Shown here: in pieces, positions 9,405 through 49,519 of the stretch
Layout: each line of letters starts with the position of its first letter
Numbering within the stretch: position 1 is the first letter of the stretch
Assembly: GCF_041355105.1 (NCBI RefSeq)
Contig: NZ_JBFUPK010000002.1
Coordinates: forward strand, 682,001 to 746,000
Direction of reading: 5' to 3'
DNA from: Terriglobus sp. RCC_193
GTDB taxonomy: Bacteria > Acidobacteriota > Terriglobia > Terriglobales > Acidobacteriaceae
Length of the DNA stretch: 64,000 bases
Position numbers and translations under genes: made by a program
The notes under the pieces: generated by a model
What the model saw: the letters and a program-made list of their open reading frames with translations, nothing else
What the model was told of the DNA's origin: nothing
Database searches by the model: none

Positions 9405-9565
9405 GCACGACTGTGCTGACGAGGATCGGTCTCTGGAACTTCGGCTTGTAGGAAGTGGTGGGCGATGAGGGCTGCGAATACCTCGGTCAGGTTTCGTGTC
9501 TGTTGTGTGTTCAGGTAAGCTGCGAACCAAGCACACATTGTTACGCACGGGTTTCTGGAGGGGCG

Positions 9566-10840
9566 TTGGCGATTTCGAGTCACGGTGAGGTTCGTACCTC
9601 GGCCGCAGCAGCAGAAGGTAGGTACACCGTTCAACTGGCGCTGATCGTCGCGTTGTTTGGAGGCATTGGATTCATCACGGCGATGAATGATGTGCTGGTG
9701 CCGCACTTCAAGGATCTGTTTCAGCTCACGAATGTGAAGGCGCTGCTGGTGCAGTTCGCATTCTTTGGCGCTTACTTTCTGCTGGCCATTCCTTCGGGCA
9801 AGATCGTGGGTCGCATTGGATATCGCAACGGCATGGTTGCGGCAATGGCTGTGATCGGCTGCGGCCTGCTGCTGTTTCTGCCGGCATCCATTCTCATTAC
9901 GTATCCGCTGTTTTTGTTTGCGCTGTTTGTGGTGGGTTGTGGGCTGGCGTTGCTGCAGGTGGCGGTGAATCCGTACATCAGCGCGCTGGGCGATCCTTCA
10001 AAGGCAGCTTCGCGGTTGAACCTGGCGGGCGGGTTGAATTCGCTGGGCGGAACGCTGGCTCCGCATGTGGGTGCGGCGTTCATCTTTGTGGCTGCAGGAG
10101 CGACGACCGCAGAGTTGGCGCGCAGTGTGCGCATGCCGTATGTGGTGCTGGGGCTGATGGCGTTTGCCATGGCGCTGGTGGTGCGGCTAGTGCATCTGCC
10201 GGAAATTATTCCGCAGGCAGAGGCGGGTGAGAAGCTGTCCGGCAGCGCGTGGGACTTTCGCCAGCTGCGCTTTGGCCTGCTGGGAATCTTCTTTTATGTG
10301 GGCGCGGAAGTGACGGTGGGCAGCCTCATCATCAACTATCTTGGCCAGCCGTCGATGGGCAGCATGCCGCATCTGCAGGCGGCGAAATACGTGTCGCTGT
10401 ATTGGGGCGGTGCGATGGTGGCTCGTTTCATCGGCTTCGTTGCCTTGCGGCATGTGAAGCAATCGCATGCGCTGGCGTTTGTGAGCGCGTTCGGCGTGGT
10501 GGCGATTACACTGGCGATTTTGGGACACGGGTCGCCTGCCATGTGGGCGATTGTTTCGTGCGGTCTTTATAACTCGGTGATGTGGCCTTGCATCTTCCCC
10601 ATGTCGATTGAGGGTCTTGGCAAGTACACCAGCCAGGCTTCTGGTTTGTTGGTGATGATGATTGTGGGCGGAGCTGTGGTGCCGGAGGTGCAGGGCTGGG
10701 TGGCCGATCATTATGGCTATCAGCGGAGCTTCCTGGTGGTGCTGGTCTGCTACGCGTATGTGCTGTTCTTTGCGTTGAGCGGGCATAAGCCGGGGAAGAG
10801 CAGCGAGGGATTGGTGGAAGTGCCTCCGGTTGGGGTTTAG
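9566..10840 (+). CDS. sugar MFS transporter, FucP-like
   Basis: A 12-helix major facilitator of the L-fucose:H+ symporter / glucose-galactose porter group. Typical pieces are GGIGFITAMNDVLVPHFKDLF in helix 1, the LAIPSGKIVGRIGYRNG loop after helix 2, NPYISALGDP and the second-half SLYWGGAMVARFIG. Acidobacterial FucP-like proteins import hexoses. I start at the TTG at 9566, which has GGAG about five bases upstream and gives 424 residues, the usual family length; the open frame extends to 9455 but the extra 37 residues are cysteine-rich and unlike any transporter N-terminus. It stands alone between the TIGR03435 gene and the DUF1080-PQQ operon. Confidence 0.88.
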   Translation: MAISSHGEVRTSAAAAEGRYTVQLALIVALFGGIGFITAMNDVLVPHFKDLFQLTNVKALLVQFAFFGAYFLLAIPSGKIVGRIGYRNGMVAAMAVIGCGLLLFLPASILITYPLFLFALFVVGCGLALLQVAVNPYISALGDPSKAASRLNLAGGLNSLGGTLAPHVGAAFIFVAAGATTAELARSVRMPYVVLGLMAFAMALVVRLVHLPEIIPQAEAGEKLSGSAWDFRQLRFGLLGIFFYVGAEVTVGSLIINYLGQPSMGSMPHLQAAKYVSLYWGGAMVARFIGFVALRHVKQSHALAFVSAFGVVAITLAILGHGSPAMWAIVSCGLYNSVMWPCIFPMSIEGLGKYTSQASGLLVMMIVGGAVVPEVQGWVADHYGYQRSFLVVLVCYAYVLFFALSGHKPGKSSEGLVEVPPVGV

Positions 10841-11125: not shown

Positions 11126-11872
11126 ATGTATGCTTATTTTGCTCGTTTAATTAATTCCTTTTCCGGGGTGAGGGCCGTGGGTCTGGTTTCTGCTCTTCGC
11201 TTTTCTGTTCGGCGCACAGCGGTGCGCTGTGTAGGTGTTGCGGCTCTTGTTCTGTCGACCGGTGTGACGGCAACCACGCAGATGCAAACGGCTGCTCCTA
11301 AGCCGAAGACGCCTGGCAATGACTGGATTCAGTTGTTCAATGAAAAGGACCTGACCGGGTGGACGCCGATTGGTGCGGAGAGCTGGACCGTGGAAGGCGA
11401 CGGCCTCCTGCATGGCAAGGGCCTGACCAAGGCCTATGGCTACCTGGAAACGGAAAAGGACTACAAGGACTTTCAGTTGTCGCTGCGCTTCAAGTGCGTG
11501 GGCGATGGCAACAGCGGCGTGTTCTTCCACACCAGCTTCGATGGTGTGGATGCCAAGACGGGCATGCAGTTTGAGATTGACTGCACGATGATGCACCACA
11601 CCGCAGGCGTGTATGCCGAAGATGGCCGCGGATGGGTAGTTTGGCCTGCGCCGGAAAATGAAGGCGTGGTGCGTAAAGGCGAGTGGAACGACTATCTTGT
11701 TGAGGTTGTCGGCAATCGCTATCGTTCGCGTTTGAATGGCGTGCCGATGGTGGACTTCACGGACCCGAAGCCGGGCGCTCCGGATGGCAAGATTGCTCTG
11801 CAGCTCCATGCGGGCGGCGCAGGCAACATGCAGTTCAAGGACATCTGGATTCGCGATCTCTCCAAGCGCTAA
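11126..11872 (+). CDS. secreted DUF1080 (3-keto-disaccharide hydrolase domain) protein
   Basis: A 248-residue exported protein with one DUF1080 / PF06439 jelly-roll domain from about residue 68 to the end: WIQLFNEKDLTGWTP, DGLLHGKG, KDFQLSLRFKCVGDGNSGVFF, EWNDYLVEVVGNRYRSRLNG and the closing MQFKDIWIRDL. The family is lectin/glucanase-like and now carries the name 3-keto-disaccharide hydrolase domain. The N-terminus has a signal-like stretch (CVGVAALVLSTGVTA). The start is uncertain: the ATG has no good ribosome binding site, and a GTG at 11177 would give a shorter signal peptide. It leads an operon with a cytochrome c and a PQQ dehydrogenase, supporting an oxidative sugar pathway in the periplasm. 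Confidence 0.85.
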   Translation: MYAYFARLINSFSGVRAVGLVSALRFSVRRTAVRCVGVAALVLSTGVTATTQMQTAAPKPKTPGNDWIQLFNEKDLTGWTPIGAESWTVEGDGLLHGKGLTKAYGYLETEKDYKDFQLSLRFKCVGDGNSGVFFHTSFDGVDAKTGMQFEIDCTMMHHTAGVYAEDGRGWVVWPAPENEGVVRKGEWNDYLVEVVGNRYRSRLNGVPMVDFTDPKPGAPDGKIALQLHAGGAGNMQFKDIWIRDLSKR

Positions 11873-11919: not shown

Positions 11920-12762
11920 ATGCGGAAATGGAATTTCAGACAAGGTGTTCACCGGCTGTGTGCAGCCGGTGTGCTCCTTTTTGCGTTTGCGCCACTGGCT
12001 GTGGCGCAGCATATCGAAACGTCTACGTTTAACCAGGCACCCAAGCGTCCTGCGGAAGACCCCAAGGCCGTGGAACATGGCAAGCAGGTCTATACGCAGA
12101 AGTGCGCATCGTGCCATGCTGCCGATCTGCGCGGCACAGATACGGGTGTGAACATTCTGCGTTCGCAGCCCGCGTTGACCGATCATGGCAACGACCACCT
12201 GACGCCGATCATGCTGGGCCAGTGGACCGGCATGCAGACGCACAAGGTGGATATTTCCAATGCGGATGCAGCGGCTGTGGGCGCTTACGTCCGCAGTCTG
12301 CTGGCGCTGATCGGAAGCCAGGGTCGTGCGCCGTATGACGCAATGAAGCAGCCGAACATTGTGGTGGGAGATGCGGTGATCGGCAAGACAACGTTTGCGA
12401 AGACGTGCGGCTCCTGCCACTCCGTGGATGGAGATCTGAAGGGATTTGCCAGGAGGGTGTCGTCACCCAAACTGATGCAGCAGGCGTGGCTGCGCGGAAC
12501 GTACCTGGGCGCGACGCCGGTTGTGGTGACCGCGACTGTGACGGAACCGGGCAAGGCTGCTGTGGCCGGAACACTGATCCACGTGGACGACTTCCTGGTG
12601 ACACTGAAGGTGGAAGACGGCACGCAGGAGACGTTTGTGCGCAACGGCGCAGTGCCGAAGGTGGTGGTGAAGGATCCGCTGGATGCTCACCGTACTCTGC
12701 TGCCCAAGTACACGGACAAAGACATTCACGACATAACGGCTTACCTGGTGACTCTGAAGTGA
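11920..12762 (+). CDS. periplasmic di-heme cytochrome c
   Basis: A 280-residue protein with a signal peptide (ends near ...LAVAQ, residue 30) and two heme c sites, CASCH at 62-66 and CGSCH at 163-167. After the second heme comes a beta-rich segment and a C-terminal helix DKDIHDITAYLVTLK that closes a cytochrome c fold. Its stop overlaps the ATG of the PQQ dehydrogenase (TGATG), so the two are translationally coupled and this is probably the electron acceptor of that enzyme. The same domain order is fused in one polypeptide at 47177-49519. AAGGA eight bases upstream of the ATG supports the start. Confidence 0.9.
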   Translation: MRKWNFRQGVHRLCAAGVLLFAFAPLAVAQHIETSTFNQAPKRPAEDPKAVEHGKQVYTQKCASCHAADLRGTDTGVNILRSQPALTDHGNDHLTPIMLGQWTGMQTHKVDISNADAAAVGAYVRSLLALIGSQGRAPYDAMKQPNIVVGDAVIGKTTFAKTCGSCHSVDGDLKGFARRVSSPKLMQQAWLRGTYLGATPVVVTATVTEPGKAAVAGTLIHVDDFLVTLKVEDGTQETFVRNGAVPKVVVKDPLDAHRTLLPKYTDKDIHDITAYLVTLK

Positions 12763-14423
12763 TGGCGCGAAGACTGCTTACCCTTGCTGCTGCCCTGCTG
12801 CTGGCTCCGTTGGCGCCAGCGCAGAACGTAACCAACGCGGATCTCGCAAAGCCTCTGCGGAACGAGTGGCTGACGTACAACGGTGATTACACCGCTCGCC
12901 GCTACAGCGCGTTGACGGCTGTGAACCGGCAGACGGTGAAACACCTGTCGCTGGCATGGACGTCGAAGATGACGCCCGGCGACCAGCTTGCGCCGCTGAC
13001 CGGCTACAGCAAGGTACGTCCTGCGCTGATCACCGGTGGCGAAGGCGCCGGCGGATTGGGTGCCGGTGGCATTAAGGGCACCATTCTGCAGCGCGACGGC
13101 ATCCTCTATGTGACGCAGCCGGACAACACCTATGCCGTGGATGCACGCAGCGGCGAAGTGTTGTGGCACTACTACTGGAAGACGCGCGGCGGCACGCACA
13201 TTGGCAATCGTGGTGTGGCTTTGTACAAGGACTATCTCTTCTTCGAGACGCCGGATGACTACCTTGTGTCGCTGGAAACGAAGACGGGCAAGGAACGCTG
13301 GCACAAGAAGATTGCCGATGTGGAGGGCGGATACTTTTCCACGCCCGCGCCGATTGTGATCAAGAACCACGTGGTCGTGGGTACGGGCAATGATCTGGAT
13401 GCGCCGAGCTTCCTGAAGTCATTTGATCCGGAGACGGGCGAACTGCAGTGGACGTGGTACGTGACACCGCAGAACCCGGGCGATCCGGGGCTGGATTCAT
13501 GGAAGAACCTGGATGCAGCGCGTCACGGCGGTGGCGGCACATGGGTGACGGGTGCGTATGACCCGGAGACCAACTACTACATCATGAGCACGGGTAATCC
13601 GACGCCGAGCTGGACCAACGGCAATCGTGGCGATGGCGACAATCTGTACACCTGCTCGCTGGTGGCGCTGGATGTGGATACCGGCAAGCTGAAGTGGTTC
13701 ATGTCCACTTCGCCGCATGACACGCACGATTATGATTCCGCGCAGACGCCGGTGCTGGTGGATGGCCTGTTCAAGGGACGCCAGCGCAAGATGGCTGTGA
13801 CGGCTGCTCGTAATGGCTACTTCTTTGTGGTGGATCGCGTGACGGGCGAGCATCTGCTGACCACGAAGTATGGCGAGACGACGAACTGGTCGGACCGACT
13901 GACACCGCGCGGTGGTCCGTATCCTGATCCGGCGAAGGACGCTTCCATTGGTGGAAGTCTCATCTCTCCGGCTTCGGGTGGCACGGTGAACTGGCAGCCT
14001 CCGGCGTATTCGCCGCAGACAGGCTTGCTGTACCAGTATGAGAACAATGGTTTCTCTGATGCGTTCCTGACCGATCCGGATCCCCGCGGCGCGATGGGAC
14101 TGGGTGGCAAGGAAGAGCTTTCCATCGGTACATATTCGAATTACATCTCAGGCATCGACTACAAGACGGGCAAGGCCCGGTGGCGTCACTCGCTGTATGG
14201 ACAGGGCACGGGCGGCGGCGGATTGCTGGCGACGGCTGGTGGTCTGCTGTTCAGCGGCGATGGTTCGGGCAACCTGGTGGCGTTCGATACGGCTAATGGC
14301 AATCCGCTGTGGCACGCACACATTGGCAGCATCTCCAATGCACCGCAGACCTTCCTGCTGGATGGACATCAGTACGTCATCGCAGCATCGGGCGATACGG
14401 TGTACGCGTTCCAACTGCTGTAG
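12762..14423 (+). CDS. PQQ-dependent (quinoprotein) dehydrogenase
   Basis: A 553-residue exported quinoprotein of the alcohol dehydrogenase type: signal peptide MARRLLTLAAALLLAPLAPA, then repeated beta-propeller blades with tryptophan-docking motifs (GEVLWHYYW, GKERWHKKI, GELQWTWYV, GKLKWFMST, GKARWRHSLYG, GNPLWHAHIG). PQQ enzymes oxidise alcohols or sugars in the periplasm and pass electrons to cytochrome c. The true start is the ATG at 12762, overlapping the cytochrome stop; the frame stays open 119 codons further upstream inside the cytochrome gene, but that is out-of-frame shadow. No heme site is present in this chain. A strong terminator follows at 14441. Confidence 0.92.
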   Translation: MARRLLTLAAALLLAPLAPAQNVTNADLAKPLRNEWLTYNGDYTARRYSALTAVNRQTVKHLSLAWTSKMTPGDQLAPLTGYSKVRPALITGGEGAGGLGAGGIKGTILQRDGILYVTQPDNTYAVDARSGEVLWHYYWKTRGGTHIGNRGVALYKDYLFFETPDDYLVSLETKTGKERWHKKIADVEGGYFSTPAPIVIKNHVVVGTGNDLDAPSFLKSFDPETGELQWTWYVTPQNPGDPGLDSWKNLDAARHGGGGTWVTGAYDPETNYYIMSTGNPTPSWTNGNRGDGDNLYTCSLVALDVDTGKLKWFMSTSPHDTHDYDSAQTPVLVDGLFKGRQRKMAVTAARNGYFFVVDRVTGEHLLTTKYGETTNWSDRLTPRGGPYPDPAKDASIGGSLISPASGGTVNWQPPAYSPQTGLLYQYENNGFSDAFLTDPDPRGAMGLGGKEELSIGTYSNYISGIDYKTGKARWRHSLYGQGTGGGGLLATAGGLLFSGDGSGNLVAFDTANGNPLWHAHIGSISNAPQTFLLDGHQYVIAASGDTVYAFQLL

Positions 14424-37149: not shown

Positions 37150-39315
37150 TTAATCCGGCAGGCTGAACGCGATGTATGCGCCGGGAATTGGCTCTTGCGA
37201 TGCGGGGTGACCGGGTGTGGCGTGCGTGTATGTGGTGGCGCGTGCCGCGGCGCAGAAGACGACATACTCTTTGCCGTTAATCTCGTAGATGGCGGGCATG
37301 CCTTCCAGCGCGGCATCTACTTCGTGTTCCCATAGAACTTTGCCGGTGGCTGCGTCGAGCGCGCGGATTTTGCGGTCGCGTGTGCCGGTGAAGATGAGTC
37401 CACCCGCTGTGACTACGGGATTCACCTTCGGAAAGTGAGCGCCGGTATTGGTAATGCCTTTGGCTGCGAGTTCCGGCACTTCTCCCAGCGGAATCTTCCA
37501 GCGAACATTGCCGGTGTTCAGGTCGTATGCGGTGAGCGTGGCCCACGGTGGAGCGATGACGGGCAATCCACTCTCTGCGAAGAGGAAGCCGAAACCACTG
37601 CGATAGCGCAGCGTGGCGGGATCGCCGGCAGGTACCGCGTTCGTGCTTTCAATGATGGGCAGACCCGGATTCTTCAGGAACTTCATCAGGTCATCCACCT
37701 GCGCGGTGGGCAGGCTGCCGAAGGATGGCATCTGATTTTTGCCGTAGCGGACGGTCTGGCGGACCTGCTCTTCGGTCAGGCGCTTGTCGATGTCGACCAG
37801 CGTGGGGATGACGGGTGCTTTGCCTTCGCGATTGGTGCCGTGGCACAGGCTGCATGTGTTGGCATAGACGGCTGCACCGCGTGCCTCCGGCGTGTTGCCG
37901 GCGGGTGCTGCGGGAGGCAGTTGCAGTTTCAGTATTGCGGGCAGGTCTTTGGACACGACGTACAGATAGCCGTGTGTTGGATCGACGGCTGCGCCACCGT
38001 AATTCACGCCGCCGTTATTGCCGGGCATCTCCACCGTGTCCTGCGTGGTGGGTGGAGTATAGATGCCTTCGTTGCGTGCGGCATCAATCTGCTTCTTCAG
38101 GCGCGCGTGTTCCTCGGGTGAGAGGTACGGGCTCAGGTCTTTTGATGTGAAGGTCTGGCGGCTGAAAGGCTCCAGCTTAGTGGGCACAGGCTGCGTGGGC
38201 CATACGTGTTCGCCGGGCATGGCGTCCTGCGGTACAGGCTTCTCTTCAATGGGCCAGAGAGACTTGCCGGTTACGCGATCGAAAACCCACAGGTAGCCGG
38301 TCTTGCTGGTCTGTGCGACAACGTCCACATCCTTGCCGTTATGCTTCACGGTCAACAGCATGGGTGTGTTCGGGTTGTCGTAATCCCAGATGTCGTGATG
38401 CACCATCTGGAAGTGCCAGATGCGCTTGCCGGTGTGTGCGTTGATGGCAATGAGCGAATCGCCATAGAGGTTCGATCCGGTACGATTGGCACCGTAGAAG
38501 TTGTACTTGGGGCTGGCGGTGGGCACGTAGAGGATGCCGCGCTTTACGTCGAGCGCCATGCCTCCCCACGCATTCGCTCCGCCCACGGTCTTCCATGCGT
38601 CTTTCGGCCATGTGTCGTAACCGTATTCGCCGGGATGCGGAATCGTGTGGAAGATCCATGTCATCTTGCCGGTGAGAACGTTGTACGCGCGGATGTCGCC
38701 GGGTGCGGAATCGTATTCTTCGTTGGTGGCGGAGCCAAGGATTATGAGATCGCCGAAGATGCGGCCGGGATTGTAGGACTGCACCAGCGTCAGCTTGTTT
38801 AGGTCGCGGCCCAGGCCTTCGCGTAGATCCACGTTGCCTTCTTTGCCGAAGGTGGTGATGGATTTGCCCGTGACCGCATTGATCTCACGAAGCTGATTGT
38901 CGACTGCGAAGATGAGGCGCTGATCCTTACCGTCCGCACTTTGCCAGTAAGCAAGGCCACGCGTAGGAACCAGCGGTGTTTTTGCCTGCAACGGATGCGA
39001 CCACAGTTGTTTGCCGGTGGCTGCATCCAGCGCAACGATGCTGTTGTTCTGTGCCAGCACATACATCGTTGTGCCGATGATGAGCGGATTAAAAATGTAG
39101 CCGCGACCATCGCCCGTGGGAACGCGCCATGCTTCCCGCAGATGGCTGACGTTGGTGCGGTTGATCTGCTTCAGCGACGAGTATTGCGTTCCATCTTCTG
39201 CGCCGCCATAAGCGCGCCACGATGCATGTACGTCTACTGTTTGTGCGGAGGCTGAGGCTGCGATGAGAACGCTGGTGAAGGCAAGAGAGCTAAGCAGGTT
39301 GCGCCGTGGTGGCAT
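37150..39315 (-). CDS. PQQ-binding quinoprotein dehydrogenase with inserted cytochrome c domain
   Basis: An exported quinoprotein of 721 residues: signal peptide to about residue 24 (ASASAQ), N-terminal propeller blades with docking motifs such as GKQLWSHPL, GKMTWIFHT, GKRIWHFQMV, then a cytochrome c domain with CSLCH at 488-492 inserted after about residue 470, and finally the closing blades (GNVRWKIPLGE, GKVLWEHEV, GKEYVVFCAA). This is the glucose/pyrroloquinoline membrane-type layout with an internal heme. The start is the ATG 39315 with GGAG eight bases upstream; the open frame continues another 67 codons over the kinase gene. It overlaps the BadF kinase stop by 26 bp, so these are co-transcribed. 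Confidence 0.9.
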   Translation of the reverse strand: MPPRRNLLSSLAFTSVLIAASASAQTVDVHASWRAYGGAEDGTQYSSLKQINRTNVSHLREAWRVPTGDGRGYIFNPLIIGTTMYVLAQNNSIVALDAATGKQLWSHPLQAKTPLVPTRGLAYWQSADGKDQRLIFAVDNQLREINAVTGKSITTFGKEGNVDLREGLGRDLNKLTLVQSYNPGRIFGDLIILGSATNEEYDSAPGDIRAYNVLTGKMTWIFHTIPHPGEYGYDTWPKDAWKTVGGANAWGGMALDVKRGILYVPTASPKYNFYGANRTGSNLYGDSLIAINAHTGKRIWHFQMVHHDIWDYDNPNTPMLLTVKHNGKDVDVVAQTSKTGYLWVFDRVTGKSLWPIEEKPVPQDAMPGEHVWPTQPVPTKLEPFSRQTFTSKDLSPYLSPEEHARLKKQIDAARNEGIYTPPTTQDTVEMPGNNGGVNYGGAAVDPTHGYLYVVSKDLPAILKLQLPPAAPAGNTPEARGAAVYANTCSLCHGTNREGKAPVIPTLVDIDKRLTEEQVRQTVRYGKNQMPSFGSLPTAQVDDLMKFLKNPGLPIIESTNAVPAGDPATLRYRSGFGFLFAESGLPVIAPPWATLTAYDLNTGNVRWKIPLGEVPELAAKGITNTGAHFPKVNPVVTAGGLIFTGTRDRKIRALDAATGKVLWEHEVDAALEGMPAIYEINGKEYVVFCAAARATTYTHATPGHPASQEPIPGAYIAFSLPD

Positions 39316-44874: not shown

Positions 44875-46131
44875 TCATGCTGCAACGCTGGAATTACGCG
44901 ACATGCGCGGCAGTGTCCAGACCAGCGTTGCTGCGATGATGGGCAGCGTTCCGAAGAGCATGAACACTGGCCGGAACGAGTAGTGGTCGACCAGCCATCC
45001 TGTGCACAGGCTGAAGACCATGCCACCGAAGCCGGAACCCATGCTGGCAAGCCCCCAGATGGAAGCGACGGCGTTCTTCGGATACAGGTCACGCGGGATG
45101 GCGAGTACGTTAGCCAGTGCGCCGCTGTAGCCAAAGGTTGCGGTGGAGATGAGCGCGATGCTCAATGCGGCGCTGCTAACCATAGCTGCGGGAAACGCGC
45201 AGACCATGCATGCGGAGAAGAACAGAACACTGATGCGGCGAGCGGTCTGGTCGTTCACACCAAGTTTGAGGATCAGCATCGTGAGGAACCCACCAGCAAG
45301 ATTGCCGAGGCCAGCGGTGGCGAAGGGGATCCAACCGATTTTTCCGATCTGCGCCAGCGTGTAGCCGTGGCTCATCTTCAGGTACTGCGGAAACCAGAAG
45401 GTGTAGAAATACCAGACCGGATCTGCAAAGACCTTACTCAGCGTGAACTGCCAGACAAAGCGGTCCTGGATGAGTGAAAGAACGGATGGAGCGGGCAGCG
45501 TGGGTTCCGCTGGATTTTCTGGTGGGGTGCGATAGATCAGAAGCCAGACAGCGATCCAGAGAAAACCAAGTACGCCGACGATGGCGAACGAGGCCTTCCA
45601 TCCGAAGCTGATGGCGCACCATGCCAGCAGTGGTGGCGCAAGCATGGCTCCAATGGCCGCGCCACTGTTGAAGATTCCCGAGGCCAGCGAACGCTCGCGT
45701 GCGGGGAACCATTCGCCAATGACCTTCACGCCTGCGGGATAGTTGCCCGCCTCACCCATGCCCAGCAGGAAGCGGTAGATACCGAGAGAGAAGGCACCGG
45801 TGGTGAGGCTGGTAAGAATCTCCGCGGCGGACCAGAAAGCGATGGTTAACGAATAGCCTTTGCGGCTTCCGAGTCGATCCAGCAGCGGCCCGGAGATGCC
45901 ATTCATGATGGTGTAGGCCAGCATGAAGGCGAAGATGATCTGGCTGTACGTGCCTGCCGAGATATGGAACTGATCGAGCAATACCGGAGCCATGACGGAG
46001 AGCGTCTGGCGGTCCAGGTAGTTGATCACCGTCGCGAAAAACGCCATGGCCAGCATGGCCCAGCGCATACGGCTCAGCGTGAATGTGGCGTTTGTTTCCG
46101 CGGACGGATCCGTGATGGCCGATATGCTCAT
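44875..46131 (-). CDS. MFS transporter, ExuT / anion:cation symporter family
   Basis: A 418-residue 12-helix carrier of the ACS (hexuronate/phthalate) group: NYLDRQTLSVMAPVLLDQF in helix 1-2, GPLLDRLGSRKGY after helix 2, and LLGMGEAGNYPAGVKVIGEWFPARERSLASGIFNSGAAIGA in helices 4-5. Hexuronate, galactonate or similar sugar acids are the usual substrates. The start overlaps the isomerase stop as ATGA, so translation is coupled. It is the last gene of the PQQ-isomerase-MFS operon, and would import the sugar acid made in the periplasm. Confidence 0.9.
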   Translation of the reverse strand: MSISAITDPSAETNATFTLSRMRWAMLAMAFFATVINYLDRQTLSVMAPVLLDQFHISAGTYSQIIFAFMLAYTIMNGISGPLLDRLGSRKGYSLTIAFWSAAEILTSLTTGAFSLGIYRFLLGMGEAGNYPAGVKVIGEWFPARERSLASGIFNSGAAIGAMLAPPLLAWCAISFGWKASFAIVGVLGFLWIAVWLLIYRTPPENPAEPTLPAPSVLSLIQDRFVWQFTLSKVFADPVWYFYTFWFPQYLKMSHGYTLAQIGKIGWIPFATAGLGNLAGGFLTMLILKLGVNDQTARRISVLFFSACMVCAFPAAMVSSAALSIALISTATFGYSGALANVLAIPRDLYPKNAVASIWGLASMGSGFGGMVFSLCTGWLVDHYSFRPVFMLFGTLPIIAATLVWTLPRMSRNSSVAA

Positions 46132-47171
46132 GCGAGCCCCTGCTTTGCAAGGTGTGCACGCACAGCTTGCAGGTCCTTCTTCATGGTGGCAATCACCTGT
46201 TCACGCGGCAGCGTCAGTGTGGTCTTGCCGTTTTCAGCACCGCCCAGCGGATATTCAAAGTGCAGTTGCAGAGGGCCGTTGAAGTTCTGCGCTTTCACGA
46301 TGGAGAGGAACTGATCGAAGTGCACCATGCCTTCGTTGATGGGGCACCAGTGCGGTACAAACACGCCCGAAGCGCCGAGGCTTTTGTCGTAGGGGTCGGC
46401 GTGCGTGTTGCTCTTTTCATTGCGTGCCCACAGGAAGTCTTTCAGGGCAATGCCGCGCATCCAGTCTGCGGAGAGTTTGCTGGTGCAGATCCATCCGCCG
46501 TAGCCGCCTTCCACGGTGGCGTGGCCAATGTCGTAGTTGAAGCCAAACCATTTGGGGTCGAGTCCTCGGAACATCTCCCATAGATCCCAGATGGTGGCGC
46601 CGATGGCTTCCGGGCCGGAGTGCGTGTGATACATGGCGGCAATGCCATTCTTTTGGCTGAGGTCTGCCAGTGCGCGCACGCCAGGACGCAGCGCATTCAG
46701 TTGCGCCACGATGGGTTGCGTGGCGTTGTACTTCAACCCGCCCCAGCGATAGTGATGGATGCCTTCGCCCGCGGCGGCTTCCAGAATCTTCTTCGCCATA
46801 GGCATGGTAGACGGTGCGATCTCCGTGCTGATCATGGAGACTTCCAGGCCAGCTTTGCGCACGGCAGCAACGGCCTTGGGTAGATCGGTCGTGACGTTCT
46901 CCGGCAGTACGTGGCCTTCGGCGCGTACGGTCATGTCAATGGCGTCAAAGCCCATGTCCTTTGCGACAATGGCAGCTTCGCCAATGGGCATGAACTGCAG
47001 ATGCTTGGAGAAGATGGAAACCTTCAGAGGGCCGGTTGGCGGGGCAGGTATGATGTTGCGCGTGGATGCAGCAAGCGCCGGCGTTGTTCCAAAAGCCTGT
47101 GCCGCTCCTGCCATGGCCGCGCCCAGCAGAAGCGATCGGCGTGACATTCCCCATTCTGTTTCGTTCTGCAT
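46128..47171 (-). CDS. Tat-exported sugar isomerase/epimerase-like TIM barrel
   Basis: A 347-residue TIM barrel with leader SRRSLLLGAAMAGAAQAFG. Motifs KVSIFSKHLQFMPIGEAAIVAKDMGFDAIDM, YHTHSGPEAIGATIWDLW, FGFNYDIGHATVEGGYGGW, VPHWCPINEG and LQLHFEYPLGGAENG give the metal site and barrel strands. The start ATG 47171 has GAGG eight bases upstream; M9 is also possible. It lies 5 bp after the PQQ-cytochrome stop and overlaps the transporter start. Export with a quinoprotein and a sugar-acid transporter suggests it handles an oxidised sugar in the periplasm. Confidence 0.87.
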   Translation of the reverse strand: MQNETEWGMSRRSLLLGAAMAGAAQAFGTTPALAASTRNIIPAPPTGPLKVSIFSKHLQFMPIGEAAIVAKDMGFDAIDMTVRAEGHVLPENVTTDLPKAVAAVRKAGLEVSMISTEIAPSTMPMAKKILEAAAGEGIHHYRWGGLKYNATQPIVAQLNALRPGVRALADLSQKNGIAAMYHTHSGPEAIGATIWDLWEMFRGLDPKWFGFNYDIGHATVEGGYGGWICTSKLSADWMRGIALKDFLWARNEKSNTHADPYDKSLGASGVFVPHWCPINEGMVHFDQFLSIVKAQNFNGPLQLHFEYPLGGAENGKTTLTLPREQVIATMKKDLQAVRAHLAKQGLA

Positions 47172-47176
47172 GTGCG

Positions 47177-49519
47177 TTACCTCTTCGCGGTCGATGTGGT
47201 GTTTGCGGGCAATGCAAAGGTCAGCAGCGTTGATCCGGCCGTGATGGAGACATACTGCACGCCATTCACGGAATAGGTCATCGGCGGACCCTTCATGCCC
47301 ACGTTAGTGTCGTAGTGCCAGAGAATCTTGCCGGTCTTCTCATCCGCAGCGCAGAATGCGCCGTTTGGATCGGCATAGAAGACGAGTCCACCTGCTGTAC
47401 CCAGAACGCCAGACCACGTCTTCAGTACCAGCGCGCCGGGCTGTGCGATCTCCCATTTTGTTTCTGCAGTTTCAATGTCGATGGCGCGAACGAAGCGTTG
47501 CTGCAGACCCTGTGCTGCGGGTGTGCCGGGCGCAGCCTTTGGATCGCCGCAGGCCTCAATCGTCATCAGGTAATACCAATGCGTGGTGGGGCTGAAGGCG
47601 GTCGACGTCCAGTTGGCGCCGTTGTCAGGGCAGTTGCGCTGCCTGGTTGGCATGGTGGTGGGCAGCGACTTGTTCAGGATGGGGCGCCCGTTGGCGTCGA
47701 TGCCGGTGGCCCAGTTGATGCGCTTCAGGAATGGCTTCGCCAGCAGCAGCTTGCCGTTGGTGCGATCGAAGACGTAAAAGAATCCGTTGCGATCGGCATG
47801 TAGCAGCAGCTTACGTGGCTGGCCCTGGAATGTGGTGTCGACAAGCACGGGTGGTTCTACGGCATCGCGGTCGGCTGTGTCATGCGGCGTGAACTGGAAG
47901 TACCATTTCACTTTGCCGTCGTGCGGATTCATCGCAAGGATGCTGTTGGTGTACAGGTTGTCGCCGGGGCGTGTGCGGTCGTCAGAGTCAGGCCACGGAT
48001 TGCCTGTGGGCCAGAACAGTGTGTCCGTTTCCGGATCGTACGAGCCGTGCAGCCATGTGGATCCGCCGCCCAGTTTGGGCCACTCCGGTCCCCATGTTTC
48101 CAGGCCGGGTTCGCCGGGGCCGGGCAGTGTCCAGTGTCGCCACAGTTGTTTGCCCGTCTCTGCGTCGTAACAGATGATGAAGCCGCGAATGCCCCAGTCG
48201 CCGCCGGAGACGCCGCCAATGACGGTGTCGTTCAGGATCATGGGCGCGACGGTAGAACCGTACTTCATCTTCTCTTCCGGCATCGTCTGTTCCCACACAG
48301 GCTTGCCGGTCACCCGATTCAGGGCGATGAGGTGCGCGTTGTCGGTGGTGATGTACACCTTGTCGCGGAAGACGGCTGCGCCGCGATTTGTGCCTACCGA
48401 CGCATCGCCCACGAGGCCCGATGTGGGCGGGCGGAACCACGTCCAGATGGTGCGGCCCGTCTTTGCATCCAATGCACTCACACGGTTCTGGCCGGAGAAG
48501 TACATCGTGTCGCCCACGACAATGGGTGTGGCCTCCAGGCCAAGCTGCGGCATGGGTGCAATCCACTTCAGGATGAGTTGGCTGATGTTGGTGCGATTGA
48601 TGCTGGTCAGGTCGCTGTAGCGATTGGCGTTGAGCTTGCCGTTGTACGAAGGCCATTCGCCCTTGCGCGGATGCAGGATTTCGTTGAACTCGATCATGCT
48701 GGCGCCGGGTGTGACGACGTTGTTCTTCTCCGGCATCGGGCCGTCCACGCCAGTCAGACTGCCGAGGTATGCCGTGAGATCGTCCATCTGCTTTTCCGGC
48801 AGTGTGAGTGGCTTCATCGCCGCGTGATCGTCGACGGTGAGTTTTGCTACCTGTGAAAGCGGCAGCAGATGGATGGTGCCGCCCTCTTTGTCCTGCAGAT
48901 GAATGTCGTAGTTGGTGCGGTTGCGCAGATAGCCGCGCAGCGTTTTGCCACCGGTAACGACCGTGGCCAATTCGTAGCCTGGCGTGATGTGCAGATCCGG
49001 CGCGGTCAGGGAGGCATGGATAGCGGGGGCGCTCATGCGAGAGCCAACGTCGGACAGGTCCGGCCCGGTGGCGGAGCCCATGCCACGGACCATGTGGCAG
49101 GTGCTGCACTTGCCGCCGTTCCAGTAAAACTGCTTGCCTGCCTCTGCGTTGCCGCTGGGGATGCTTTCGGATGCGGTGACGTTCAACGAACGGACGTATG
49201 CAGCCAGATCATCAATGTCAGCGGTTGGCATGCTGCCAAAGGGAGGCATACCCTGTGCGGGAAATCCGGCGGCAATGATGCTGTGAATGCGTGCAATGTC
49301 TTTGCCGCGGAGGTCCGGATTATCTGCCAGCTTGGGCGCATGCTCTGTTCCGCCGCCATCTGTTTCGTGGCAACCGATGCACAGGTTGCTGTATTTCACC
49401 TTGCCGGATGCGGCCGATGGCGTTTGCGCGGGCAGCGTTACCGCTGCAGCGGCGCACAACAGGGCAGCAGCCAGAGTGCGGGATGCGGAGTGGCCGAAGC
49501 TGATTTGCGATCGATTCAT
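47177..49519 (-). CDS. fused di-heme cytochrome c - PQQ quinoprotein dehydrogenase
   Basis: A 780-residue exported protein. After a signal peptide (to about residue 31) come two cytochrome c sites, CIGCH at 47-51 and CSTCH at 138-142, a beta-rich segment (TLRGYLRNRTNYDIHLQDKEG) and then a PQQ propeller from about residue 290 with GRTIWTWFRPP, GKPVWEQTM, GKQLWRHWTLP, GKVKWYFQF, and TKWEIAQPG. The layout equals the split cytochrome plus PQQ pair at 11920-14423 fused into one chain. It leads the operon with the TIM-barrel enzyme and MFS transporter. A LacI-type operator lies 91 bases upstream. No clear ribosome binding site precedes the ATG. Confidence 0.9.
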   Translation of the reverse strand: MNRSQISFGHSASRTLAAALLCAAAAVTLPAQTPSAASGKVKYSNLCIGCHETDGGGTEHAPKLADNPDLRGKDIARIHSIIAAGFPAQGMPPFGSMPTADIDDLAAYVRSLNVTASESIPSGNAEAGKQFYWNGGKCSTCHMVRGMGSATGPDLSDVGSRMSAPAIHASLTAPDLHITPGYELATVVTGGKTLRGYLRNRTNYDIHLQDKEGGTIHLLPLSQVAKLTVDDHAAMKPLTLPEKQMDDLTAYLGSLTGVDGPMPEKNNVVTPGASMIEFNEILHPRKGEWPSYNGKLNANRYSDLTSINRTNISQLILKWIAPMPQLGLEATPIVVGDTMYFSGQNRVSALDAKTGRTIWTWFRPPTSGLVGDASVGTNRGAAVFRDKVYITTDNAHLIALNRVTGKPVWEQTMPEEKMKYGSTVAPMILNDTVIGGVSGGDWGIRGFIICYDAETGKQLWRHWTLPGPGEPGLETWGPEWPKLGGGSTWLHGSYDPETDTLFWPTGNPWPDSDDRTRPGDNLYTNSILAMNPHDGKVKWYFQFTPHDTADRDAVEPPVLVDTTFQGQPRKLLLHADRNGFFYVFDRTNGKLLLAKPFLKRINWATGIDANGRPILNKSLPTTMPTRQRNCPDNGANWTSTAFSPTTHWYYLMTIEACGDPKAAPGTPAAQGLQQRFVRAIDIETAETKWEIAQPGALVLKTWSGVLGTAGGLVFYADPNGAFCAADEKTGKILWHYDTNVGMKGPPMTYSVNGVQYVSITAGSTLLTFALPANTTSTAKR

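Follow-up and report, generated by a model that had tools for sequence, protein, structure and literature searches.

The split and fused loci

The window (the whole 64,000-nucleotide stretch of Terriglobus sp. RCC_193 DNA analysed here) contains the same protein parts in two arrangements, as two adjoining genes on the forward strand and as one gene on the reverse strand. Clade A and clade F are the phylogenetic clades that hold the split pair and the fused protein, respectively. The features of the split locus are as follows:

11920 to 12762, + strand: diheme cytochrome c gene, split form (open reading frame; Pfam Cytochrom_C/CBB3; best PDB relative Kustd1711)
12103 to 12117, + strand: heme 1 motif CASCH, residues 62-66 of the split cytochrome (sequence; invariant in 74/74 relatives)
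12406 to 12420, + strand: heme 2 motif CGSCH, residues 163-167 of the split cytochrome (sequence; invariant in 74/74 relatives)
12529 to 12669, + strand: five-strand Hfq-like "nose" of the heme-2 domain (predicted strands, residues 204-250, moderate confidence; Foldseek hits to Hfq and Kustd1711)
12688 to 12690, + strand: His257 of the split cytochrome, a candidate ligand (alignment; invariant in 35/35 of clade A)
12715 to 12756, + strand: closing helix, residues 266-279, DKDIHDITAYLVTL (DSSP on the model; last helix of the heme-2 cytochrome fold)
12727 to 12729, + strand: His270 within the closing helix, a candidate ligand (alignment; invariant in 35/35 of clade A)
12759 to 12764, + strand: stop-start overlap GTGATG of the cytochrome and propeller genes (sequence)
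12762 to 14423, + strand: split PQQ-type beta-propeller, 553 aa, with its own signal peptide (TIGR04528, 726.8 bits; clade A in the tree)
13728 to 13736, + strand: D-Y-D of the split propeller, with catalytic-type Asp323 and lanthanide-type Asp325 (alignment to PDB)

The split cytochrome is a 280-aa protein with a signal peptide and two c-type heme domains, the second of which contains an Hfq-like beta insertion, and it ends in DITAYLVTLK. At the junction, the TGA of the cytochrome gene (12760-12762) and the ATG of the propeller gene have one A in common; use of an in-frame GTG at 12759 would turn this into a 4-bp GTGA overlap. The fused locus has the following features:

47177 to 49519, - strand: fused cytochrome-propeller, 780 aa (open reading frame; HMMs; AlphaFold2)
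49367 to 49381, - strand: heme 1 motif CIGCH, residues 47-51 (sequence)
49094 to 49108, - strand: heme 2 motif CSTCH, residues 138-142 (sequence)
47864 to 47872, - strand: D-R-D lanthanide-type motif, residues 550-552 (alignment)

The fused protein consists of a diheme module (residues 1-255), a linker (256-285) and a PQQ-type propeller (286-772), with DLTAYLGSL just before the propeller, and genomes G036 and G046 encode full-length orthologs that are 93% identical. An earlier note on this DNA had the coordinates, frames and stop-start overlap of these genes right, both TAYL motifs that it quoted are present, and HMMs, alignment and AlphaFold2 all bear out the shared order of parts on which it remarked. 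The two propellers are 33% identical and the cytochrome parts can be aligned over their length at 25-27% identity; the same HMMs are matched by both propellers (TIGR04528: split, 726.8 bits; fused, 457.3 bits), a likeness far above chance.

A third quinoprotein of the window (37150-39315, - strand) joins heme and propeller in a different way: in this 721-aa protein, one cytochrome c domain interrupts the PQQ propeller ahead of its last blades.

Partnership and co-inheritance of cytochrome and propeller

In the window's genome (G000; 4.2 Mb, 99.98% complete), in which the genome-wide work was done by targeted searches, seven propellers score above the TIGR04528 cut-off, each with a diheme cytochrome gene directly upstream, and there is one fused gene in addition. 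Across six genomes, all 41 diheme modules of at least 100 bits are either same-strand upstream of a propeller or fused to one (41/41), two of them with a gene of roughly 1 kb lying between module and propeller. Conversely, 41 of the 45 propellers of at least 500 bits in these genomes have a diheme module. A scan of 80 loci listed them in order of likeness to the fused propeller; this biases its counts of fused and split forms, which are therefore not used as a measure of prevalence.

Phylogenetic trees were made for the propeller (101 rows), for the propeller in a more careful version (75 rows) and for the cytochrome (60 rows). All three place the split pair in clade A and the fused protein in clade F, and further split lineages branch outside these two clades. 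The cytochrome tree recovers A, F and a third group as one clade each, at bootstrap values of 98-100%, in agreement with the propeller tree. Cytochrome and propeller pairwise distances correlate at r = 0.865 (74 pairs), and the correlation holds within clade A, which is mostly split (0.864), and within clade F, which is all fused (0.875), while within-clade shuffles of the labels give at most 0.163 and 0.332. The partners of a split pair are therefore co-inherited no less tightly than the domains of a fused protein. By these computations, cytochrome and propeller have been inherited as cognate pairs since before A and F separated. Because the two trees agree and the partnership is exclusive in 41/41 modules, the data support one ancestral cassette underlying the split and fused forms, as the earlier note had supposed in deriving both from one ancestral enzyme. 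The window's own two copies are, on the other hand, ancient deep paralogs and not recent products of fission or fusion. They cannot be read as each other's split and fused counterparts, since they belong to different, strongly supported clades and clade A made fusions of its own.

Gene overlap and repeated fusion

A 4-bp overlap is found at 28 of 47 homologous split junctions, and four more junctions are within 5 bp. In prokaryotes at large, no gene spacing is more frequent than an overlap of 4 or 1 nt, which permits termination-reinitiation; such overlaps couple translation, and genes for subunits of heteromeric complexes are enriched among them (PMC10666635). Given this enrichment, the 28/47 overlaps and a co-inheritance of split pairs as tight as that of fused domains, it is plausible that translational coupling could stand in for the covalent link in the split form.

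To read the direction of change, canonical PQQ dehydrogenases served as the outgroup (four rows, of which one has a long branch); all deep lineages of the tree so rooted are split. On the careful propeller tree, the distribution of fused proteins requires four changes of state, a number that is imposed by the starred branches and constant across the bootstrap (range 4-4). These changes, together with the split state of the deep lineages, amount to four independent fusions: one at the base of clade F, one in L037, one in L039 and L161, and one in L167. Three of the four lie inside clade A, where L167 adjoins the window's split subclade, and an AU test rejects the constraint of the clade-A fusions to one clade (p = 1.7e-72). 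A and F separated before the fusion in F. On the rooted tree, split is thus the ancestral state and covalent fusion has occurred at least four times, so that, where fission and fusion had both been considered, fusion is favored and fission is disfavored by deep lineages that are all split.

The computations also place the fusion point always after the last helix of the cytochrome (...AYLxxL), with a linker in the place of the stop codon and signal peptide. For instance, one genome from another family of the same order (G019) has clade-A copies of both kinds (at least seven split, three fused), and its fusions are joined just after ...AYLxTL by Pro/Ala-rich linkers. In the clade-A pair L042 (genome G095), the two genes are in frame with one TAA between them, a single stop codon from fusion.

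The diheme module and its second heme

According to AlphaFold2, both forms have the order heme 1, heme 2, five strands and closing helix; the model of the fused protein has a pLDDT of 83 and a pTM of 0.83, and that of the split cytochrome is of low confidence (pLDDT 70.5, pTM 0.44). Among PDB sequences, Kustd1711 of Kuenenia (7ZS0; profile E-value 4.8e-32) is closest to the diheme module; it has two cytochrome c domains, and an Hfq-like five-strand "nose" is inserted in the second of them (PMC11791136). The profile alignment spans heme 2 and the nose, and the top Foldseek hits of the low-confidence split-cytochrome model include Kustd1711 and Hfq structures. Because the Kustd1711 alignment and the models match in order, the nose and the closing helix are assigned to the heme-2 domain: the five-strand region is an insertion inside this domain, and the closing helix is its last helix. 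The beta region and closing helix of the earlier note are thus real, but they do not form a spacer between cytochrome and propeller. Like the window's modules, Kustd1711 of the anammox bacteria has two cytochrome c domains, the second bearing the Hfq-like nose; in contrast to them it stands alone, and both its hemes are His/Met, whereas clade A is without the heme-2 Met. Against TIGR02603 (cut-off 68.15), the fused sequence scores 76.4 bits as a protein and 63.7 in the genome search, and the split cytochrome, at 37.7, is below the cut-off. Several split clade-A cytochromes (L001, L042, L044, L125-L127) have a third CxxCH N-terminal to the diheme module.

In the alignments, the axial Met of heme 2 is kept in 24/24 clade F proteins and in 14/15 other split relatives. 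No Met is conserved at this position in clade A, in which two His residues are invariant instead (35/35 each), and within the window the Met is retained in the fused protein and lost in the split cytochrome. Clade A has probably retuned heme 2 through this loss, and its axial Met may perhaps have been replaced by His. Since the position aligned with the Met differs by a few residues from one alignment to another, either His257 or His270 could be the ligand. The structure of the equivalent Met-to-His mutant of Kustd1711 has been solved, and a Met-to-His change is expected to lower the potential by ~320 mV (PMC11791136). With the Met lost in clade A and a drop of this size to be expected if His has replaced it, the window's split and fused proteins are probably not electronic equivalents.

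The propeller and its putative cofactor site

Pfam finds a PQQ propeller and cytochrome c at both loci. By score, the split propeller is a member of group A of TIGR04528, "acido-empty-quinoprotein" (726.8 bits against a curated cut-off of 650), whereas the fused propeller, at 457.3 bits, is below this cut-off. Neither reaches the cut-off of 480.05 for the PQQ-dependent methanol/ethanol dehydrogenases of TIGR03075 (split, 348.4 bits; fused, 431.6 bits). In structure searches, the propeller fold is nearest PedH and the type II alcohol dehydrogenases (ADHs; Z about 44).

The Cys-Cys disulfide pair is absent from both window propellers, as it is from 35/35 clade A and 24/24 clade F propellers; six deep split relatives retain it, which places its loss within the family. 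Glu177 (MDH numbering) is Asp in clade F and falls in an altered Asp-containing loop in clade A. Without the Cys-Cys pair in either clade, and with a changed Glu metal ligand, PQQ binding may be altered or lost. Other pocket residues, namely Trp243, Arg109, Asn261, Asp303, the Asp at +2, Arg331 and Asn394 (MDH numbering), are conserved in 35/35 clade A propellers and in almost every clade F propeller. The D-x-D motif, i.e., an Asp at +2 of the catalytic Asp, is present in both propellers (D-Y-D in the split, D-R-D in the fused); it marks lanthanide binding in PQQ dehydrogenases (PMC11996626). While D-x-D and the other pocket residues persist, the label "empty" must be regarded as unproven. PedH (6ZCW) shares the propeller fold and the D-x-D, Trp, Asn and Arg pocket residues, but the window family is without the Cys-Cys pair and the Glu metal ligand and has a diheme module on the N-terminal side, either carried or paired. 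Type II quinohemoprotein ADHs (1KV9, 1KB0, 1YIQ) likewise have a propeller covalently joined to a c-type cytochrome; there, a single heme domain is C-terminal, whereas here two heme domains are N-terminal or encoded by a separate gene, and the nose is additional. Among the hits listed in the PDB structure searches, no chain has the full fused architecture, an absence that is not decisive. In the literature searched, the family name "acido-empty-quinoprotein" was not found in use, and neither a constant diheme partner nor repeated fusions were found described.

A targeted search for PqqC found none in the window's genome, where the controls were silent, and all PqqE matches in this genome are below the cut-off. 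The same PqqC search over 297 Acidobacteriota genomes gave matches in 28 of them, above the cut-off in 14, and therefore works; PqqC is present in three of the seven sampled genomes that have an over-cut-off TIGR04528 member. The window's genome also encodes a canonical lanthanide-type PQQ-ADH (L009; G000:C1:1495565-1497145) with the Cys-Cys pair, the Glu and D-W-D, followed by two monoheme cytochromes. Since this canonical enzyme occurs in a genome in which PqqC was not found, PQQ may be scavenged. Scavenging of PQQ is common among bacteria without its synthesis, and in the Acidobacteria the importer PqqU has been reported only in Vicinamibacteria (PMC12124388). On balance, a working metal-dependent site with scavenged PQQ appears likelier than an empty one.

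Proposed function and alternative explanations

We favor, at a probability of roughly 0.75, the reading that both loci belong to one family of cognate-pair cassettes in which the split form is ancestral, fusion has taken place at least four times, and the propeller passes electrons to its own diheme cytochrome. The cassette, which occurs mainly in Acidobacteriota, would be a periplasmic oxidoreductase made up of a diheme cytochrome c gene directly upstream of, and usually overlapping, a gene for a PQQ-dehydrogenase-type propeller. The overlap would allow co-translation and thereby matched amounts of the two proteins before export, and fusion would make their partnership permanent. In the periplasm, the propeller would oxidize an alcohol or sugar-type substrate at a putative metal-dependent cofactor site of the lanthanide (D-x-D) type, probably with scavenged PQQ, and the electrons would move from the propeller to its own diheme cytochrome and then to the respiratory chain. 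At heme 2 of clade A, loss of the axial Met, perhaps to His, would lower the potential. One ancestral two-gene module with repeated fusion, in a known kind of enzyme, is well supported.

The shared order of parts could also be convergent, each locus having independently recruited a common TIGR02603-like cytochrome module beside a common propeller. The combination of heme 2 and nose is indeed known elsewhere (TIGR02603; Kustd1711 in the anammox bacteria), and the two loci do fall in different clades, which corresponds in part to the unrelated clades that the earlier note would have taken as a sign of independent assembly. However, the trees are congruent, the mirror-tree correlation persists even within clades, and the 41/41 diheme modules of the six genomes occur only with a propeller, which makes independent assembly very unlikely. 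A direct event, in which a pair related to the window's split genes gave rise to its fused gene, or vice versa, would account for the same genome, the same domain order and the similar boundary motif, but it is scarcely credible at identities of only 33% (propeller) and 25% (cytochrome), with A and F each strongly supported, other split lineages outside both, and a fusion of its own (L167) neighboring the window's split subclade.

A different question is whether the clade-A propeller is an enzyme at all. It may be without cofactor and catalysis, now serving a structural, binding or sensory role while the cytochrome does other redox work; the NCBIfam name acido-empty-quinoprotein, the negative PqqC search in the window's genome, the loss of Cys-Cys in 35/35 of clade A and the changed Glu ligand all point in this direction. 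On the other hand, the pocket Asn, both Asp, the Trp and both Arg are invariant in 35/35 of clade A, the genome also encodes the canonical L009 enzyme, for which PQQ may be scavenged, PqqC does occur in 3/7 sampled genomes with an over-cut-off member, and scavenging is common, even if PqqU in Acidobacteria has been reported only in Vicinamibacteria. A truly empty quinoprotein is accordingly judged doubtful. An extension of the cognate-pair reading is offered tentatively: the cassettes would be lineage-expanded pairs of dehydrogenase and cytochrome, their coupling repeatedly preceding fusion, and clade A would have been retuned (loss of Cys-Cys and Glu, heme-2 Met to His) around a lanthanide-type site with a scavenged or altered cofactor, making the "empty" proteins working enzymes. 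If this holds, their chemistry would be one that is so far undescribed. An abundant soil-bacterial family annotated as "empty quinoproteins" is now linked to a diheme partner that is constant and in which a heme ligand has likely been switched. The at least four independent fusions provide a replicated natural experiment in the passage from an overlapping gene pair to one protein; G019 offers both split and fused copies within a single genome, and L042 an intermediate that a single stop codon keeps from fusion. Testable predictions follow on the cofactor, the metal and the electron path.

Genomic context and relatives

The neighboring genes that bear on the substrate are the following:

9455 to 10840, + strand: GluP-type MFS sugar transporter, upstream of the split pair (context)
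11126 to 11872, + strand: PF06439 (DUF1080, 3-keto-disaccharide hydrolase), upstream of the split pair (context)
46128 to 47171, - strand: PF01261 sugar-isomerase-like TIM barrel, adjoining the fused gene (context)

PF01261 TIM barrels also adjoin three split cassettes, and ThuA and Gfo/Idh/MocA adjoin one. In other bacteria, DUF1080 proteins are 3-ketoglycoside hydrolases that work with periplasmic sugar dehydrogenases (PMC9007349). From these gene neighbors, a sugar or glycoside is a reasonable guess at the substrate; elsewhere, the neighbor families of clade F are too mixed to name one.

Several relatives depart from the cassette. Five propellers (L131, L134, L135, L137, L149) have N-terminal extensions of 160-270 aa without a heme motif, and Pfam gives no match in the extensions of L131 and L134. 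In a sister clade (L083 2424-3902, L109 2496-3872, L021, L022, L094), a DUF4380-like gene and not a cytochrome gene is coupled to the propeller. Near these relatives the cytochrome is displaced or absent; in L109 and L119, a diheme cytochrome is found further upstream of the coupled gene. Finally, a single 4.8-Mb genome of the same phylum (G190) has 92 propeller matches, consistent with the large repertoires of lanthanide-type PQQ dehydrogenases reported in some Acidobacteria (PMC11996626).
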